From Streptomyces sp. SUK 48 (GTDB lineage Bacteria; Actinomycetota; Actinomycetes; Streptomycetales; Streptomycetaceae), in NCBI RefSeq assembly GCF_009650765.1, contig NZ_CP045740.1:124001-188000 (forward strand): a DNA stretch of 64,000 bases, in the 5' to 3' direction. The position numbers and the translations under genes were made by a program. The notes under the pieces are model-generated. The model did no database searches and was not told where the DNA came from. It saw only the letters and a list, made by a program, of their open reading frames with translations. Position 1 is the first letter of the stretch; every line of letters begins with the position of its first letter. Below are positions 36,063 through 44,900 of the stretch, piece by piece.

Positions 36063-36078
36063 TACACGGGCCTCAAGG

Positions 36079-36173
36079 CGGAGAGGGCAGGATTTGAACC
36101 TGCGTGGGCCCCGAAGGGCCCGACCTCGAGACGAGCTCGGCGGTCCCCGATAAGCCGCTCCGGGCACCTCTCC
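36079..36173 (-). tRNA. Atypical class II (serine-like) tRNA gene
   Basis: On the minus strand GGAGAGG pairs with CCTCTCC (7-bp acceptor), followed by discriminator G; T-arm GCAGG-TTCAAAT-CCTGC; a long variable arm with GGGCCC-TTCG-GGGCCC; and a D-arm CCCG...CGGG containing GAGCGGC. These fit tRNA-Ser. The anticodon arm is abnormal: 22 nt lie where 17 are expected, and the folds give either a 5-nt loop on CGAG/CTCG or a 7-nt loop with tandem G-A mismatches (CGT at anticodon positions). No CCA is encoded. It may be a degenerate or specialised tRNA. Confidence 0.6.
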
Positions 36174-36273: not shown

Positions 36274-38790
36274 CTACGCCGCGCGCAGGTCGATGACCGT
36301 GCGCAGCTTCCCGCTGGTCGCGGTGCGCTCGAACGCCTCCCTCGGCACGGTCTCCGCGGTGAGGGCCAGCAGGCCCTCCGCCTCGGCGGAGGCCAGCTCC
36401 GGCACCTCCGCCGCCAGAGCGCGGTGCGCGGCCCCGGGGTCGCCGGCGTACTGCTCGTCCAGGCGGATCGTCAGTTCCTCCCGGCCGGCGCCGGAGCGGA
36501 CCACGAGCTGCACCTCGCCGTGGTAGGCGAGCCGCTCCTGCGCGGCGGCGACGACGCGCCGGTAGTTGACGAAGTAGGTGCCGACGCGCACGACGTCGCC
36601 GTAGCGGCCGAGCAGTTCCAGCCGGGGTACATGGCTGCCACAGGCGCACGGGCCCTCGACGGCGCGCCCCAGGTCACCTATCTCGTAGCGCTCCAGCCGC
36701 TGGCCCGCGCGGGCCCGGGAGGTGAACACCAGCCGTCCGGGCTCGCCGGGTGTAACCGGCCGGTCGTCCCCCGGGTCGAGGATCTCCAGGGTGTGCAGGT
36801 CGGTCAGTACGTGGTGGACCGAGCCGTCGGAGGAGGCGCACTGGTAGCCGAGCGGCCCGAGGTCGGTGCTGCCGTACGCGGCGGACCGGATCACCTCGAC
36901 GCCGAACTCCTCCATGAGGACGCGGCGTTGCTCGCCGGTGAAGTGCTCGCCGCCGTAGAACACCGTCCGGATGCCGCCGTACGCGCGCAGCCGGTCGGCC
37001 TCGGCGTGGAACAGCTGCCACAGGTAGGAGGGCATGCCGAACACGGTGTCGGCCCGGTGGGTGACCAGTGCCTCGGCGACGGTGGCGTGGTCGGGTCCGG
37101 CGGCCATCGGCAGCTGGGTGGCGTTCAGCCGTTCCAGGATGGAGAAGAAGCTGATGAAACTCCCGTACATCCCGCCGCAGTAGAACAGGTTGGCCGCGCG
37201 GTCCCGCGCCGGGTCGAAGCCGGCGGCGAGCAGCCCGTCGGCCGCGGCGCGCATCTGGTTGTCGTAGTCGTCGACGGTGAACACCGACAGCGCGGGCGCG
37301 CCGGTGGAACCGCCGCTGCGGAAGTACAGGTGGGCGTGGCGCGCGTCCAGGGAGGCCAGCGCGCGCTGCACGCCCTCCTTGCCGAGCAGCGGCGCGTCCG
37401 GGACCGGGGGCAGGACGGGGGCGGACACCAGGTCGTCCAGGCAGGCCACCGGCCCGAACTCCGCGTCCGCCGTCCGCACGCTCACCCGGCGGCTGTAGCG
37501 CTGGAGCGCGTAGACGCCGTCGTGCGGCTCGCCCTCGTAGCCGTCCAGCATGGAGCCGACCGGGGTGATCCGGGTGACGCCCGCGGCGAACAGGGCGCGC
37601 GACAGCGCGGCCACGTCCGCCCGGCCGCCGCCGACCGCCGCGGTCTGCAGGTAGCGGCGCATGGGCCGCAGCGTCCCGGTGACCAGGTGCCGGGGCAGCG
37701 GCTTGACCCAGACGCTGCGGTGCAGCGGGGAGGCCGCGAGCGCGGGGCGGGTGTCCGCCAGCACCCGCCAGGAGCCGTCGTCACCGGTGAACACCCGGGT
37801 GAGGCCCAAGTGCTGTTCGATCCGGGCGAGTTGCTGGACGGTGGTGATCTCCGCCTGCTCGGCCGGTCCGGGCCGGGGCGCGGGACGGGCGCCGGACACC
37901 TTCGCGAGCCGCTCGGCGAACCGGCCGGCGAACGCGAAGACCTCCTCGGTGTCCTCGGTGTCGAGATAGACCACCTGCGGGCTGGAGCATGCCTGCTGCT
38001 CGAACCGGCAGACGTCCTCGGCCAGCGCGTCCAGCAGGCCGTCCGCGTCCGCCGCCTCCCGGGTCAGGTAGGCGAAGGAGATCCGGTGCCCCCATGCGAC
38101 GACGCGGCAGCCGGGCGGCGCCAGTTCACGCACCGCGCTCTCCGCCTCCTCACCGCCCCAGACCGCGATGGCGTCGGCCTGTCCGCACAGAGCTTCCAGC
38201 CAGTCGCGGCGCGAGGAGGGGAAGCGCAGGGCGATCACCCGCTCGGCGATCAGTCCGCTCGGGTCGGCCGCCGCGAGCGCGGCGAGCAGGTCGAGGGCGA
38301 GCGGCGTGTCCGAGCCGCTCGTCTTCAGGACGTTGACGTTGCCCGCGAGCAGGCCCTCCACGACGCTCAGCGGGGCGACCGCGGCCGCGTTGCCGGGCGC
38401 GATGTGCACCAGGAGTCCCACCGGCGCCCAGGACTCGAACACCGTCTCGCGGCCGTCCGGCCGGGTCAGCCGCTCCGGACGCAGACCGCCCAGTTCCCGG
38501 CGCAGCTTGCGCTCCAGTGCCTGCCGGGTGAGCGCGCCCGCCAGCTCGGCCAGGGTGGAGGCGGCTTCGGCGGCGGGAAGGTGGGCGGCCAGCCGGGTGT
38601 GGAGGGCGGAGCGGGGGTCGGCCAGGTCCGCGCCGACCGCGGCGCAGGCGCCGAGGACGACATCGGTGGGCAGCGGGCGCTCCAGGACGCGGGCGGCCGT
38701 CTCCGGCAGGTCGGCCATCCGCCGTCCTGCCTCGGCGTCGTCGACGAACTCGCCCTGCCAGAAGTGGAGTACGGGTACGGAAGCGGTCAC
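36274..38790 (-). CDS. LuxC-like acyl reductase fused to a PaaK-like adenylating domain
   Basis: 838 residues, GTG start overlapping the upstream stop (GTGA). Residues ~1-400 form a LuxC-type NADPH acyl-CoA/acyl-enzyme reductase: PVGLLVHIAPGNAAAV, LLAGNVNVLKTSGSD, and the catalytic cysteine Cys268 in EQQACSSPQVVYLD. Residues ~430-838 are a phenylacetyl-CoA-ligase-like AMP-binding domain: YFRSGGSTGAPALSVF (P-loop), FYCGGMYGSFISFF, AAYGSTDLGPLGYQC, and ATSGKLRTVIDLR with a terminal lysine. Separate genes are normal in lux systems, so the fusion is notable. Last gene of a five-gene coupled operon. Likely reduces an activated acid to an aldehyde. Confidence 0.82.
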   Translation of the reverse strand: MTASVPVLHFWQGEFVDDAEAGRRMADLPETAARVLERPLPTDVVLGACAAVGADLADPRSALHTRLAAHLPAAEAASTLAELAGALTRQALERKLRRELGGLRPERLTRPDGRETVFESWAPVGLLVHIAPGNAAAVAPLSVVEGLLAGNVNVLKTSGSDTPLALDLLAALAAADPSGLIAERVIALRFPSSRRDWLEALCGQADAIAVWGGEEAESAVRELAPPGCRVVAWGHRISFAYLTREAADADGLLDALAEDVCRFEQQACSSPQVVYLDTEDTEEVFAFAGRFAERLAKVSGARPAPRPGPAEQAEITTVQQLARIEQHLGLTRVFTGDDGSWRVLADTRPALAASPLHRSVWVKPLPRHLVTGTLRPMRRYLQTAAVGGGRADVAALSRALFAAGVTRITPVGSMLDGYEGEPHDGVYALQRYSRRVSVRTADAEFGPVACLDDLVSAPVLPPVPDAPLLGKEGVQRALASLDARHAHLYFRSGGSTGAPALSVFTVDDYDNQMRAAADGLLAAGFDPARDRAANLFYCGGMYGSFISFFSILERLNATQLPMAAGPDHATVAEALVTHRADTVFGMPSYLWQLFHAEADRLRAYGGIRTVFYGGEHFTGEQRRVLMEEFGVEVIRSAAYGSTDLGPLGYQCASSDGSVHHVLTDLHTLEILDPGDDRPVTPGEPGRLVFTSRARAGQRLERYEIGDLGRAVEGPCACGSHVPRLELLGRYGDVVRVGTYFVNYRRVVAAAQERLAYHGEVQLVVRSGAGREELTIRLDEQYAGDPGAAHRALAAEVPELASAEAEGLLALTAETVPREAFERTATSGKLRTVIDLRAA

Positions 38791-39953
38791 GACATTCCCT
38801 TCATCATTTCGGCGGCGGCCACCGCGCAGCTGCGGTTGCGGCTCACCCCGGCACGGCCGAGCACGGTGAACCAGTCGGTGGACAGCGGGCAGGGGCACTC
38901 CTCGCCCGGGTGCAGCGAGGCGAGGTCGCCCATGACGACGCTGTGTGCCGGTACGGAGGTGATGTACGGGCTGACCAGGTGCAGGAAGCCGGGCTCGCCG
39001 TACGCCAGCGGGCGCAGCGTCCTCGGGTCGCGGACCGCGGCGCGCGACCACACGGGGACGTGCAGCCGGTGGTGCGCGCACTCGACGTACGGCACGCAGT
39101 GCTCGACGGACCCGAAGGTGTCGCGGACGGACTCGGCCGGGATACCGAGGCGTTCGGTGACCGCGGCGCGGAGCTCGTCCTTGCCGATCTGCCGGTCGGC
39201 GTGGCCCTTCCAGCCGCCGCCGAGCACCACCAGCGACCCTTCGGGCAGCCGCAAAGGGGCCATGCCCGTCGACCTCATCCGCTCCAGGGTGAAGTACAGG
39301 AAGGCCGGGAAGCCGAGGATGCGCACCGGCGCGTCCTCGTCGGCGTAGCGCTGGAGCGCGGCGATGCAGCCGTGCACGTCGAACTCGTGGCCGGAGCCGG
39401 TGTGCCGCAGCGCGTGCGTGGTGTGCCGGGCCGGGGCGAAGTCGCACAGGTAGTTGTCGGTGAACGAGGTGCCCAGCTTCAGCGACGGCGCGGGCTCGTA
39501 GCTGTAGAGCAGGTAGTTGACCGGCCGGTCGGGGGTGATCCAGCCGTAGTGGTCGAAGATCCGGGCCACCATGCGCTGGGCCGAGCGGATCGTCCAGCGG
39601 TCGAAGAACATCTGGGACTTCTGGCCGGTGGTGCCCGAGGACGTCAGATGCAGGAACACCTCGTCGCGGGGGACGGAGAGCGCCTCGTGGCGCTTGAAGA
39701 ACGCGGCCGGCACCAGCGGGGTGCGCACGCCGTCGCCGACGGTGGGCGCCGGGATCTCGGCCTGGTCCTGGAGCAGGGCGGCGAGGAACGGGGACCGTTC
39801 GGCGTGCCAGGCGTTGGCCTCGGCCATGGCGGCGGCGAACAGCCCGTCGGCCTCGGCGCCGGTCGCGTACGGGTCGGCCAGGTCGCACAGGCGCTGCACC
39901 TGGCCGAGCGCCGCCGGGTCGGGGACCTCGACGGGAGCGAGATGGGGGTTCAT
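38787..39953 (-). CDS. LuxE-like acyl-protein synthetase
   Basis: 388 residues. LuxE family signatures: VFLHLTSSGTTGQKSQMFFD (AMP-binding P-loop), NYLLYSYEPAPSLKLGTSF, VRILGFPAFLYFTLERM and LVVLGGGWKGHADRQI, with SVRDTFGSVEHCVPYVECAH near the C-terminus. In bioluminescent bacteria LuxE activates a fatty acid as acyl-AMP and hands it to LuxC via a cysteine thioester; here it precedes the LuxC-like gene with a 4-nt overlap, so the same hand-over is likely. There is no luciferase gene in the window. Confidence 0.82.
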   Translation of the reverse strand: MNPHLAPVEVPDPAALGQVQRLCDLADPYATGAEADGLFAAAMAEANAWHAERSPFLAALLQDQAEIPAPTVGDGVRTPLVPAAFFKRHEALSVPRDEVFLHLTSSGTTGQKSQMFFDRWTIRSAQRMVARIFDHYGWITPDRPVNYLLYSYEPAPSLKLGTSFTDNYLCDFAPARHTTHALRHTGSGHEFDVHGCIAALQRYADEDAPVRILGFPAFLYFTLERMRSTGMAPLRLPEGSLVVLGGGWKGHADRQIGKDELRAAVTERLGIPAESVRDTFGSVEHCVPYVECAHHRLHVPVWSRAAVRDPRTLRPLAYGEPGFLHLVSPYITSVPAHSVVMGDLASLHPGEECPCPLSTDWFTVLGRAGVSRNRSCAVAAAEMMKGMS

Positions 39954-41089
39954 CGGGACACCTCGTGAAGGGGCAGGTAGGTGGAGGCCCAGGCGCTCAG
40001 ATAGGCGCCGAGGTAGGGCTGGAGCAGCGGGCTCACGGCCGTCGTACGGAAGTCGATCTGCCGGCTGGTGCGGGAGAGCACCACGTAGTCGTGCAGCCGG
40101 TCGCCGACGCGCCGCATCGCCGGGTAGACCGCGCTCGGTACGAACCCGGAGGCCAGGAAGATCTCCAGGGCCTCGGTGTCGGCCAGCGGCAGCAGGGTCT
40201 CGGCGTAGTCGGCGCCGGCCCGGGTGACCGTGGTCATCAGCGCCTCCAGGGCGCCGGTCAGCGCCGCGGGGCGCGGGTGTACGGCCACGAGCGCGCAGCT
40301 GCCCGCCACCGGGTCGAGGTCGGCGTACGCCTCGAAGCCGCCGTCGGCCGCGACCAGCAGCGCGTTGGGGGTGTGCAGGGGGAAGAAGCGGTCGGCGGCG
40401 CGGGGGAAGCGTTCGAGGAAGCGGCGGCGTACGAAGGCCGGTGCGGGAATCAGTTCGATCGGCTCGGCCCCGGGGTCCCGGCGCGGCGCGCTTTCGAGGG
40501 CGACGGCCCGGGCCGTGCCGGCGCAGTCGATGCCGATGCCCGCGGACGCGGCGGCCAGCAGCCCCGTGAGCCGCTCGGGTACGCGGTCCACGGGGGCCCG
40601 GCGCTCCAGCACGCCGTCGGCGTAGCGGGCGAAGAGCCCGAGGCTCTCGCAGCCGTCGACCTCGACGGCGTTGGGCAGCAGGCCGAGGGGCCGGAAGCCG
40701 TTGCGTACGACGACGTGCTGGGGGCCCTCGGTGACGACGCGCACGGTGGCGTAGAGCGAGTCGGGAATGCCGGTGGCGAGGGCCGCCTCGCAGACCGCGC
40801 CGGTCAGCCGGGAGGCCAGTCCGCCGCCGCGGTGCCCGGGGTGGACGGCGAGCCCGAGGAGCTTGCCGACGCGGCTGCCCGCGTCGGTCTGCACGACGGC
40901 GGAGCCGACCAGGTCCCCGCGGGCCGTACGGGCGGTGAGCCAGTGCGCGGAGCCGTCGGTGATCATCCGGCGCATCACGGCCGGGTCGCTGCCGAGCGGC
41001 ACCGGGTAGCCGTGCCCGTACACCTCGAAGTACAACTGCCGCAGTTCGGCGATGTCCTGGACCGCCGCCGGGGCGAGGACGACGGTCAT
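39950..41089 (-). CDS. GNAT-fold acyltransferase
   Basis: 379 residues. The N-terminal GNAT core has motif A LLGLAVHPGHRGGGLASRL near residue 80; a second half (about 230-379) looks like another, degenerate GNAT unit (RAGADYAETLLPLAD). Both flanks overlap by ATGA. In an operon that activates and reduces acids it could N-acylate an amine or amino acid intermediate, but no carrier protein or amine-forming enzyme is next to it. Substrate unknown. Confidence 0.72.
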   Translation of the reverse strand: MTVVLAPAAVQDIAELRQLYFEVYGHGYPVPLGSDPAVMRRMITDGSAHWLTARTARGDLVGSAVVQTDAGSRVGKLLGLAVHPGHRGGGLASRLTGAVCEAALATGIPDSLYATVRVVTEGPQHVVVRNGFRPLGLLPNAVEVDGCESLGLFARYADGVLERRAPVDRVPERLTGLLAAASAGIGIDCAGTARAVALESAPRRDPGAEPIELIPAPAFVRRRFLERFPRAADRFFPLHTPNALLVAADGGFEAYADLDPVAGSCALVAVHPRPAALTGALEALMTTVTRAGADYAETLLPLADTEALEIFLASGFVPSAVYPAMRRVGDRLHDYVVLSRTSRQIDFRTTAVSPLLQPYLGAYLSAWASTYLPLHEVSR

Positions 41090-42504
41090 GACGTCTCTCC
41101 CGCCGGGGTGAGGTGCGCCGTCGCCGCGTCGCCCGGGGAGGTGCGCGGCGCGTCGGGCCGCGCGCGGCCGGCCAGCCACCACAGCGCGAGCGCGACCGGG
41201 ACCAGTCCGGCGCCCTGGACGAGGCAGAGCGCACGCGCGCCCAGGTGGTCGCCGAGCGCGCCGAAGAGGAGGGAGGACAGCGGGAAGGTGGCGCCGAGGA
41301 GGGCCTGCATGACCGCGAAGAAGCCGGGCTTGTCGGCCGTGGGCACGAGCCGCTGGAACAGCGCCACGAAGCGGACGCCGATCACGCCGACGCACCAGCC
41401 GGCGACGGCCAGCGCGCCCATCGCCGTCGCGTGCCCGGCCCACAGGCCCGGCAGCCCGAGCGCCACGGCCATCACGGCCAGGCAGGCGCTGCCGACGGCG
41501 ACCGGCCGCCCGGGTACGCGTGCCCCGGTGAAGGAGCCGACGAGGGTGCCCGCGCCGAGCGCGGCCTCCAGGGTGGCGACGGTCGACCCGGTGGAGTGCA
41601 GCACCCCTCGGGTGTACAGCGGCATGACGACGTAGACGGCGGTGGTGAACAGGTTGGCGGCGGCGAAGCAGAGCAGCACGCGGCGGATGAACGGGAGCCC
41701 GGCCAGGACCTGGCGCAGTGTCCGGGGGGCGGGGGGCGGCGTGTCGTGCCCCGGGTCCGTGGCCGTGGAGCGGTCCCGCGCGTCCTGCGGCGCGTCGGAC
41801 GCGCCGGTCACGGCGGTTACGGCGGTTACGGCGATCGCGTCGGTAACGGCGGGCATGTCGGCCACGACGGTCGCGTGGGTCGCTTCGGTCGCGTGGCGGA
41901 ATCGGGCCGAGGCGACCAGCAGGGCGGCGAGCAGGTAGGCGCTGCCGCAGACGGCCACGACCACCGGGAGGCCGCCCGCGTCGACCAGGAGCGGCCCGAG
42001 CAGGCCGCCGCCGAGTCCGGCCAGCGACTGGGTGGACAGTTCGAAGCCGGTGGCGGTCTCGATGTCCGCGTCCTCGACCAGTTCGGGCACCGACGTCGTG
42101 AGACACGGGTCGAACACCGCCTGGCAGGCCGCGAGTGCCAGGCCCACCGCGTACACCGCGGCCATGGGCAGGTCACCGGCGTACGCCCAGAGCGCCGCCG
42201 GTATCGCGACGGCGCCCGCCGCGGCCGCGGCGACGGCCAGCACCGCGCGGTGCGCGTACCGCGCGACGACGCGGGCGACCACGGGGGCGAGCGCGACCGC
42301 GGGGAGGGTGCTCACCATCAGGAACAGGCCCGACTCCAGACCGCGCCGCGTGCCCCCGGCGAAGCCGACGAGCCACCAGACCGCGCCCACCTGGAACATC
42401 CGGCCTGCGGCCTGGGTGAGGAGCTGAGCGGTCCACACCCGTCCGAAGGAGGGGTTGCGCAGCACCAGCGGCAGGCGCCGGCCTCGCGGTACGGCCGCGC
42501 TCAT
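41086..42504 (-). CDS. MFS exporter
   Basis: 472 residues, about 12 hydrophobic segments (FQVGAVWWLVGFAGG, LFLMVSTLPAVALAPVVARVV, AVYAVGLALAACQAVF, LLCFAAANLFTTAVYVVM). It resembles the MFS_3 efflux group. The cytoplasmic loop between helices 6 and 7 contains a repetitive AVTAVTAVTG segment and an Asp/Pro-rich stretch. Sits inside the coupled operon (ATGA at both ends), as expected for export of its product. Confidence 0.8.
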   Translation of the reverse strand: MSAAVPRGRRLPLVLRNPSFGRVWTAQLLTQAAGRMFQVGAVWWLVGFAGGTRRGLESGLFLMVSTLPAVALAPVVARVVARYAHRAVLAVAAAAAGAVAIPAALWAYAGDLPMAAVYAVGLALAACQAVFDPCLTTSVPELVEDADIETATGFELSTQSLAGLGGGLLGPLLVDAGGLPVVVAVCGSAYLLAALLVASARFRHATEATHATVVADMPAVTDAIAVTAVTAVTGASDAPQDARDRSTATDPGHDTPPPAPRTLRQVLAGLPFIRRVLLCFAAANLFTTAVYVVMPLYTRGVLHSTGSTVATLEAALGAGTLVGSFTGARVPGRPVAVGSACLAVMAVALGLPGLWAGHATAMGALAVAGWCVGVIGVRFVALFQRLVPTADKPGFFAVMQALLGATFPLSSLLFGALGDHLGARALCLVQGAGLVPVALALWWLAGRARPDAPRTSPGDAATAHLTPAGETS

Positions 42505-43763
42505 GAATGCGGCCGTTCGTCGACGACCCGGACCAGTTTGCCGGAGCGGGAGTTGACGGCGAGGTCCTGGTGCCGCGCCCACTCGACGGTGAGCGGGTTC
42601 ACGTGTCCGGCGTCCGCCGCGCCGGTGTAGGCCGGCCGCTCGGCGAGGACGGCCGCGGCCACGGCGGCTCCCAACGCGCCGTGCCGGTCGGCGGGTTCGG
42701 CGGTGGCGAGGCGCAGCACCAGGCCGTCGCGGCCGTCCCGGCGGCGGATCACGAGCTGGAGCCCGGTGATCTCGTCCGCCGTGTCGGCGCCGCGCACGAT
42801 GTCGTGCACGTCCTCGGTGTAGAGGGAGACGGGGCCGACCCGTACGCCCTCCTCGGCACGGCCGAGGATGCGGAAGACGCCCGCGTCCCGGTCCACCCAC
42901 TCCGCGCGGTCGCCGGCCGGATAGCGCAGCACCGGCATCAGTCGCCGGCGCAGGTCCGTGACGACGAGCCGGCCCGGGACGCCGGTGCCCTCGACGGGCA
43001 CGTCGGCCTCGTCGTCGAGGATCTCCACGGCCGTGTGCGGGACGAACGCGCGGTGCACCCGCGGGTCGCCGCCGGGTACGGCCTCGCCGAGGAGGCCCGC
43101 GTCCACGCTCGCATAGCCCAGCGAGCGGGCCTCGGCGTTCGGGAACGCCTTGCCGAGCAGCGGGAGTTGGTCACCGAAGAGGCACTCCCCGCCGAAGAAG
43201 AGGAGCTCGACGTCGGGCAGGGTCCGGCCGGCCGCGGTGAGGCGTTCGGCGAGCGCGCACAGGGTGGTCGGGGTGCCTGCGACCACCTCGACGCGGAACT
43301 CCTCCAGGGTGGCCGCGGTGGATTCCCACGGCGTCGCGCCGCCCAGCGGCAGCCGTACGTTGGCCACCGGGGAGCGGTGCAGTGAATCGAGTATGAAGCT
43401 GAAACTCGCGTACAGGTCTCCGGCGTAGAACAGATCGGCCACTCGATGGCCGGGCCGCAGACCGGCGTTGACAAGTCCGGCACCAAAAGCGGAGGTGAAT
43501 TCCCGCCATTCGGTGCGTGTATAGAAGGAGAACTTCGGGGATCCCGTGGTTCCGCCACTGCGAAAGACGACCGCTTCTTGCAGCGGGGCCGTCAGCAGCC
43601 TGTTGTCGCGGGGCGAGTTGGCCCGCCAGAATTCCGTCTGGGGCACGACCGGCAGGTCCGTGAGCTCGGTGACCTGATCCGGGAGGTGCGAGTAAAGCTG
43701 CCTGTAGAACGGTGAGTTGAGGCGCGCGAAGCGTACCAGCTCCGCTAATGATTGAACGGGCAT
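42501..43763 (-). CDS. Stand-alone PaaK-like acyl-adenylating enzyme, first gene of the Lux-like operon
   Basis: 420 residues from ATG 43763, chosen for AGGA 6 nt upstream and because it matches the family N-terminus (LVRFARLNSPFYRQLYSHLP). P-loop FRSGGTTGSPKFSFYTR near residue 85, LFYAGDLYASFSFI, ELLFFGGECLFGDQLP, and a C-terminal lysine in NSRSGKLVRVVDERP. This is the phenylacetate-CoA ligase/CapK fold. Codon 6 is TTA (43746-43748), so the whole coupled operon is probably bldA-dependent. The first ~150 bp are less GC-rich than the rest. It activates a carboxylic acid; which one is unknown. Confidence 0.8.
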   Translation of the reverse strand: MPVQSLAELVRFARLNSPFYRQLYSHLPDQVTELTDLPVVPQTEFWRANSPRDNRLLTAPLQEAVVFRSGGTTGSPKFSFYTRTEWREFTSAFGAGLVNAGLRPGHRVADLFYAGDLYASFSFILDSLHRSPVANVRLPLGGATPWESTAATLEEFRVEVVAGTPTTLCALAERLTAAGRTLPDVELLFFGGECLFGDQLPLLGKAFPNAEARSLGYASVDAGLLGEAVPGGDPRVHRAFVPHTAVEILDDEADVPVEGTGVPGRLVVTDLRRRLMPVLRYPAGDRAEWVDRDAGVFRILGRAEEGVRVGPVSLYTEDVHDIVRGADTADEITGLQLVIRRRDGRDGLVLRLATAEPADRHGALGAAVAAAVLAERPAYTGAADAGHVNPLTVEWARHQDLAVNSRSGKLVRVVDERPHS

Positions 43764-44360: not shown

Positions 44361-44900
44361 ATGGCCAGCGAGTTTCAGGAGCGCAAGCTCAGGGGGATGT
44401 TCGCCGCGTTCGACGCCGACGGGGACGGCTGTCTGCGCGAGGAGGACTTCAGGGCACTGGTCGCCCGCTGGAGCAGGCTGCCCGCGGTGGGCCCGGGGAC
44501 GGAACTGCGCGCGCGGGTCGAGACCCTGCTGATGGGGTGGTGGTCGGCCCTGCGCGAGGCCGGAGGCGCCCGGGGAAGCGGGACGGTCGATCTGCGCGAA
44601 CTGCTCACGGTGGTCGACGGGCTGCCCGCGATGGCGGCGGAGGTCACCGCCACGGCGAACACGGTCTTCGACGCCGTGGACGCCGACGGGGACGGCCGCA
44701 TCAGCCCGGAGGAGCACCGGCGACTCGTGGAGACCTGGAACGGGCGGCCGGTGGACCTGACGGGCGTCTTCGAACTGCTCGACCGAAACGGCGACGGCCA
44801 TCTCGACCGCCCGGAATTCGCGCTCCTGTGGCGCCAGTTCTGGACGAGCGACGACCCCACGGAACCGGGGAACTGGCTCTGCGGGAGGTTGGCCGTCTGA
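44361..44900 (+). CDS. EF-hand calcium-binding protein
   Basis: 179 residues. Three canonical EF loops: DADGDGCLREED (near 19), DADGDGRISPEE (near 111) and DRNGDGHLDRPE (near 145), each with acidic residues at positions 1, 3, 5 and 12; a fourth region (GSGTVDLRELL near 74) is degenerate. This is the calerythrin/calmodulin-like layout of Streptomyces calcium-binding proteins. ATG preceded by GGGAGG at 6 nt. It is divergent from the Lux-like operon; no link is proven. Confidence 0.9.
   Translation: MASEFQERKLRGMFAAFDADGDGCLREEDFRALVARWSRLPAVGPGTELRARVETLLMGWWSALREAGGARGSGTVDLRELLTVVDGLPAMAAEVTATANTVFDAVDADGDGRISPEEHRRLVETWNGRPVDLTGVFELLDRNGDGHLDRPEFALLWRQFWTSDDPTEPGNWLCGRLAV

Follow-up and report, generated by a model that had tools for sequence, protein, structure and literature searches.

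This article concerns a compact operon in Streptomyces sp. SUK 48: five open reading frames (ORFs), all on the minus strand at 36274-43763 (~7.5 kb) of a 64,000-nt stretch of DNA, here called the window, which comes from an 8.34-Mb single-contig genome (G000:C1:124001-188000). An earlier note on this DNA had described five genes in a row, in the order PaaK-MFS-GNAT-LuxE-fusion, with a 4-nt ATGA or GTGA overlap at every junction. ORF positions and Pfam agree with this description (Table 1), and the overlaps are seen at all four junctions (ATGA, ATGA, ATGA, and GTGA). A qualification applies to the first gene, whose AMP-binding match (24 bits) falls under the Pfam cut-off of 29.9; it is placed as PaaK-like by NCBIfam matches (likewise under their cut-offs) together with solved-structure matches. 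The fusion protein carries an acyl reductase in its N-terminal part, with Cys268, and an AMP-dependent ligase in its C-terminal part. Chains of the LuxC-LuxE entry 7xc6 are the sole solved match for LuxE, and again the sole one for the LuxC half of the fusion.

Table 1. Genes of the operon and neighboring features, with positions in the window
Feature	Position	Strand	Length	Remarks
PaaK-like AMP-dependent ligase	42501-43763	minus	420 aa	First gene of the operon
MFS exporter	41086-42504	minus	472 aa	Pfam MFS_1, 78.8 bits
GNAT acyltransferase	39950-41089	minus	379 aa	Pfam Acetyltransf_1, 37.7 bits
LuxE-type acyl-protein synthetase	38787-39953	minus	388 aa	Pfam LuxE, 99.9 bits
LuxC-PaaK fusion	36274-38790	minus	838 aa	Pfam LuxC, 298 bits; AMP-binding, 38.5 bits
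tRNA-Leu (gag)	36077-36173	minus		~100 bases downstream of the operon
Small EF-hand-repeat protein	44361-44900	plus		Divergent from the operon

The claim that no luciferase, carrier protein, or nonribosomal peptide synthetase (NRPS) lies nearby was also borne out. The condensation domain PF00668 has 69 places across the genome, the carrier-protein domain PF00550 has 106, and the luciferase family PF00296 has 31, with none of any of the three inside the 64-kb window. The tRNA-Leu beside the operon was considered as an integration site, but this lead went nowhere, as 18 of 19 other loci are without a tRNA in their stretch and the remaining one has a tRNA-Pro.

Match to the leupeptin genes of gammaproteobacteria

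Leupeptin is a common laboratory protease inhibitor, and the primary description of the genes leupABCD is said to be that of Li et al. 2020. Leupeptin from actinomycetes goes back to 1969, by a title in a reference list. The leup cluster of Klebsiella and Xenorhabdus is known here through passages of PMC8283571, PMC11480411, and PMC11212599. Among these, PMC8283571 reports leupABCD from K. michiganensis CAV1374, next to a transporter, prints a leupA primer, and states a length of 5831 bp, and a passage of PMC11212599 has the leupeptin of Xenorhabdus bovienii made by separate AMP-dependent ligases and a reductase.

In one exact contig scan, the published leupA primer matched a single record, K. 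michiganensis DSM 25444. The stretch around it holds, in a row, an MFS gene and genes for LuxE (378 aa), a LuxC-PaaK fusion (802 aa), PaaK (446 aa), and GNAT (305 aa), and the start of leupA is separated from the end of leupD by 5837 bp (versus the 5831 bp stated for CAV1374). Please note that the letters A to D were assigned in this analysis, from gene order and from the position of the primer within the LuxE gene.

Each of the four enzymes of the window operon finds its partner in this row. The LuxE protein is 53.6% identical to LeupA (E about 1e-125), the fusion is 42.6% identical to LeupB over residues 91-836, and the free PaaK is 37% identical to LeupC (E 9e-76), with which it scores 247 bits, compared with 92 bits for the ligase half of LeupB. 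The GNAT protein gives a profile match to gammaproteobacterial LeupD-type proteins (E 7.7e-11) and belongs to the same Pfam family. The MFS protein gave no tblastn match with the MFS protein beside leupA in K. michiganensis. Judged by architecture and similarity of the predicted proteins, then, the window operon is the Streptomyces counterpart of leupABCD, differently ordered, rather than a new kind of pathway. The suggestion that this combination of genes has no described product must be given up: the set matches a characterized cluster for leupeptin, an outcome named beforehand as one that would count against it.

Two further order relatives of K. michiganensis (L061 and L062) keep LuxE, the fusion, PaaK, and GNAT, and the LuxE relatives of LeupA include, among the best 120 of 1744, proteins of Xenorhabdus bovienii, Photorhabdus, Yersinia, and Pseudomonas. 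Similar genes also occur on plasmids of Salmonella enterica: CP053580.1 carries LuxE, fusion, and PaaK genes (leupABC-like), and CP054717.1 carries leupABC-like genes plus an annotated GNAT. Both plasmids are typed as conjugative, IncFIB/IncFII.

Conservation and distribution

The same-genus survey covered 199 genomes, our own included. A full-length fusion protein is present in 23 of them (own counted) at 62-100% identity, and one genome, G168, has an additional, second copy at 53%. Among the best 120 of 954 matches, the nearest named proteins to the fusion are those of Streptomyces sp. CL12 and S. malaysiense (97%) and of S. murinus and S. griseofuscus (96%). Stretches of 20 kb (shorter at contig ends) were drawn for 17 of the 22 other full-length loci. 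The order PaaK-MFS-GNAT-LuxE-fusion is kept in all 17 of these fetched, gene-called loci, and their internal stop codons are without exception of the ATGA or GTGA form (68/68); shared order and overlapping stops together argue that the operon is not a product of chance. The flanks of the 17 loci differ: outside the operon, a single rough gene call matched any protein of the window, and the match covered 36% of its length.

At the family level, a search with the LuxE of L038 (the divergent second copy in G168) at E 1e-80 matched 74 of 394 Streptomycetaceae genomes, again including our own, in 6 of 17 genera. From the 78 places found, 20 were fetched, chosen by eye for spread. The five-gene order of the window, which the earlier note had suggested looking for in other actinomycetes, recurs in 11 of these. 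The remaining nine have GNAT-LuxE-fusion with a PaaK gene nearby, on the opposite strand in seven, and among the genes shown in these nine loci none matched the window-type MFS. All four enzymes are found together in 20/20 (the fusion by tblastn in L081, and as two tblastn pieces in L080). GNAT and free PaaK thus accompany LuxE in 37 of 37 fetched loci, and since all 17 same-genus and all 20 family loci hold the four enzymes, these appear to travel together, with the exporter as the variable part. Set aside from this count were L038 and four loci with a LuxE-LuxC pair only (L039, L040, L046, and L047). It would be tempting to regard L038 as a natural PaaK-less variant; this was rejected, because its 10.9-kb contig ends there and the absence proves nothing.

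Further afield, the genes become rare. Of 396 phylum genomes, three gave a LuxE match at E 1e-40; two of these are Streptomyces, our own among them, and the match in the third is just 32% identical. Among the relatives of K. michiganensis, with that species itself counted, LuxE turned up in 1 of 369 at class level and in 3 of 345 at order level, the latter at E 1e-60. Complete five-gene copies also reside on plasmids, namely in Streptomyces sp. NBC_00158, Streptomyces sp. BHT-5-2, and S. cattleya.

Active-site residues

Residue conservation was scored across 44 other loci. We take the roles of the two cysteines, the ligase loops, and the lysines to be those generally known for these families. 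Cys268 of LuxC is kept in 44/44 loci, and its loss, which the earlier note would have counted against its reading, was seen in none; Cys376 of LuxE with four loop residues is likewise kept in 44/44, as are the AMP-binding loop residues sampled in the fusion. Lys828, the C-terminal lysine of the fusion, is kept in all 43 loci that are covered, one further locus lying outside coverage. Both cysteines align with those of lux-type proteins. In the free PaaK, Lys409 is likewise kept in 44/44, and loop residues 70-74 are each kept in 42 to 44 of the 44, two of the five being changed in L061 and L062.

Proposed pathway

We consider it highly likely that the product of this operon, which is also exported by it, is a member of the leupeptin family of N-acylated tripeptide aldehydes (Ac-Leu-Leu-argininal and congeners), made by a carrier-free route. 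In the first step, the GNAT enzyme, whose first domain is the counterpart of LeupD, would acetylate leucine as an acetyl-CoA:leucine N-acetyltransferase. The two PaaK-type ligase domains, one free and one fused to LuxC, would then form the two peptide bonds through acyl-adenylates. LuxE would adenylate the completed peptide acid, carry it on Cys376, and pass it to Cys268 of LuxC for NADPH-dependent reduction to the aldehyde, which the MFS protein would export. These steps presumably follow the known chemistry of the enzyme families; the bond that either ligase would form and the part played by the second GNAT-like domain are likewise matters on which we can offer only inference.

Making Ac-Leu-Leu-argininal takes an acetylation, the formation of two peptide bonds, and the reduction of one acid. 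With one GNAT protein, two PaaK ligase domains, LuxE plus LuxC, and an exporter in the operon, every gene is put to use; the three ATP-using domains equal the number needed for two peptide bonds and one reduction. The earlier note had proposed acid activation, reduction by LuxC to an aldehyde, acylation by GNAT, joining, and export, which can be retained in outline. As to its idea that two or three different acids are activated, the three activating domains are probably better read as two peptide-bond ligases and one activation for reduction, all working on a single N-acyl peptide as it grows. In S. roseus, early enzymology is said to have found acetyl-leucine synthesis, ATP-dependent peptide synthesis, and ATP-/NADPH-dependent acid reduction, which would fit the operon.

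Two GNAT-like domains seem to be present in the GNAT protein, a feature that the earlier note does not mention. In the structure model (mean predicted local distance difference test score, pLDDT, of 84), the second half is GNAT-like as well, and the first Foldseek row is a tandem GNAT of the clavulanic acid pathway. With a template modeling score (TM-score) of 0.37 and a root-mean-square deviation of 13, the domains match that protein but their arrangement does not. A second structural comparison returned general GNAT matches, mostly to the first domain.

Reported leupeptin producers among the streptomycetes

If these are the leupeptin genes of Streptomyces, then producers should carry them, and for one strain this can be followed through. 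In the passages of PMC12235219, leupeptin molecules with congeners are reported from S. cattleya DSM 46488 (by mass spectrometry, MS) and S. griseochromogenes DSM 40499, acetylleucylleucine is reported from them too and named as the precursor, and the congeners of these producers contain Val, lysinal, propionyl, and homoleucine; the gene-cluster passages of the same article name none for leupeptin. On the megaplasmid pSCAT of S. cattleya NRRL 8057 (= DSM 46488), the five genes are all present and in the same order, with 69-81% identity to those of the window. For the second species, a protein named S. griseochromogenes is the fusion, with 84% identity to that of the window.

Further producers are on record. 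Passages of PMC5511137 report that MS showed leupeptins in isolates given the names S. cattleya and S. albospinus, and a passage of PMC8546846 counts S. roseus, S. exfoliatus, S. griseus, and S. lavendulae among the producers; our LuxE match list includes one S. lavendulae protein (its strain not matched to the reported producer). Our literature search turned up no description that we recognized of a LuxE/PaaK-type leupeptin cluster in Streptomyces, with the reservation that Li et al. 2020 may mention Streptomyces homologues. The five genes are, on the sequence comparisons given here, very probably the leupeptin genes of Streptomyces, and from this we infer the product in Streptomyces sp. SUK 48.

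Alternative explanations

Several points weigh against a leupeptin assignment and should be kept in mind. The similarity to LeupD spans residues 4-186 of the GNAT protein, that is, its first domain only, and both gene order and exporter are unlike those of the gammaproteobacterial cluster. The LuxE and LuxC trees have long, unresolved deep branches: the two gammaproteobacterial rows group together, as do the three stand-alone pairs, and the five-gene rows from Streptomyces do not form a single firm group, so that the pairing with leup rests on architecture and similarity. The fusion protein named S. griseochromogenes comes from a strain not matched to DSM 40499, and the comparison is of the fusion only. 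The leupeptins of S. cattleya might arise from another locus, the comparison having covered the megaplasmid, and those of Streptomyces LN699 have been tied to an antipain NRPS (in passages of PMC11212599).

The alternative that survives best is a leupeptin-like pathway with other residues, whose main product would be a different N-acyl di- or tripeptide aldehyde (with lysinal, with valine, or an aromatic analogue). PaaK and the fusion are just 37-43% identical to the gammaproteobacterial enzymes, and the producers described in PMC12235219 are reported to yield congeners with Val, lysinal, propionyl, and homoleucine. We nevertheless find this unlikely: leupeptin itself was reported there from a strain whose own operon is 69-81% identical, and LuxE, the expected handler of the C-terminal acid, is the most conserved of the enzymes (54%). 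It is important to remember that a mixture of congeners would satisfy both this explanation and the leupeptin assignment, so our degrees of confidence overlap and need not sum to one.

It could also be argued that Streptomyces leupeptin is made by NRPSs and that the operon makes something unrelated. Passages of PMC10548850 list leupeptin among the NRPS-made Streptomyces peptides, PMC11212599 adds the case of LN699 (both mention the 2020 gammaproteobacterial work), and our own genome has its 69 condensation-domain places elsewhere. With NRPSs credited in both papers, the operon appears to be an unassigned locus. Against this, the operon matches a non-NRPS gammaproteobacterial cluster and is present in a strain reported to make leupeptins, and we regard the proposal as very improbable. 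Both routes, operon and NRPS, may exist in different strains.

Finally, a lux-like pathway to a fatty aldehyde or another non-peptide aldehyde, which the title of the earlier note suggests, has in its favor the presence of the LuxE and LuxC families, with 7xc6 chains as the only solved matches, and was rejected as scarcely credible, the window LuxE sharing only 23.5% identity with the LuxE of a lux-type gene set found on a plasmid of E. coli K-12 ("lux-type" by our own reading of its three genes) versus 54% with LeupA, GNAT and free PaaK being its constant partners (37/37), and no luciferase-family place lying inside the window.

Other LuxE-LuxC pairs and wider implications

LuxE-LuxC pairs also occur by themselves. 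Our own genome has a second, stand-alone pair (L040:8743-11339; G000:C1 about 298242-300838), 51-54% identical to that of the window and with no GNAT or PaaK alongside, and a similar pair in L039 lies near polyketide synthase and NRPS genes. On the S. europaeiscabiei plasmid NZ_CP109155.1 (L046), a pair sits beside a YcaO-nitroreductase, an MbnB/TglH/ChrH-type enzyme, and a metallo-beta-lactamase-fold gene; by its predicted gene content, this is an island like those for ribosomally synthesized and post-translationally modified peptides, with a carboxylate reductase pair. In a distant phylum, the Chloroflexota plasmid CP069395.1 (L047) has a pair whose LuxE is 36% identical to that of the window, with no ligase or GNAT annotated alongside.

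A broader proposal, which we make tentatively and lean against more than toward, is that the operon is the unassigned leupeptin locus of Streptomyces, a compact island moving between chromosomes and plasmids, and that LuxE-LuxC is a wider carrier-free module for reducing peptide acids, recruited elsewhere (as in the YcaO/MbnB-type island of S. europaeiscabiei and the pair in our own genome). Such movement, if real, would explain a 1978 paper, cited in PMC8546846, which according to its title describes the conjugal transfer of leupeptin production by S. roseus MA839-A1.

For the wider community, the operon offers a likely locus for Streptomyces leupeptin, in the form of a defined, carrier-free set of genes open to deletion or transfer, and it connects actinomycete with proteobacterial leupeptin. 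Genome mining with it can find likely producers that NRPS-based searches would miss, LuxE being matched in 74 of 394 Streptomycetaceae genomes.

Comparison with known systems

With the LuxC-LuxE part of the lux operon, the window operon shares enzyme families and the alignment of the catalytic cysteines; it differs in lacking a luciferase-family place in the window, in the fusion of a PaaK, and in the addition of GNAT and free PaaK. The antipain-type clusters of Streptomyces, in passages of PMC11212599, likewise yield peptide aldehyde protease inhibitors, but are NRPS-made, whereas the window has no condensation or carrier-domain place. The livipeptin locus of S. lividans 66 is, in the passages of PMC10548850, likewise small, with N-acyl Leu-argininal as its predicted product, and employs a tRNA-utilizing enzyme and a C-minus NRPS instead of LuxE, LuxC, and PaaK.

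Compared with leupABCD, the order differs (PaaK-MFS-GNAT-LuxE-fusion in the window, LuxE-fusion-PaaK-GNAT in the gammaproteobacterial row), the enzymes are 37-54% identical, and the second half of the window GNAT is unmatched. Common to both are the LuxE, the LuxC-PaaK fusion, the PaaK, and the GNAT, in a row free of carrier proteins, with an MFS gene adjoining in K. michiganensis.

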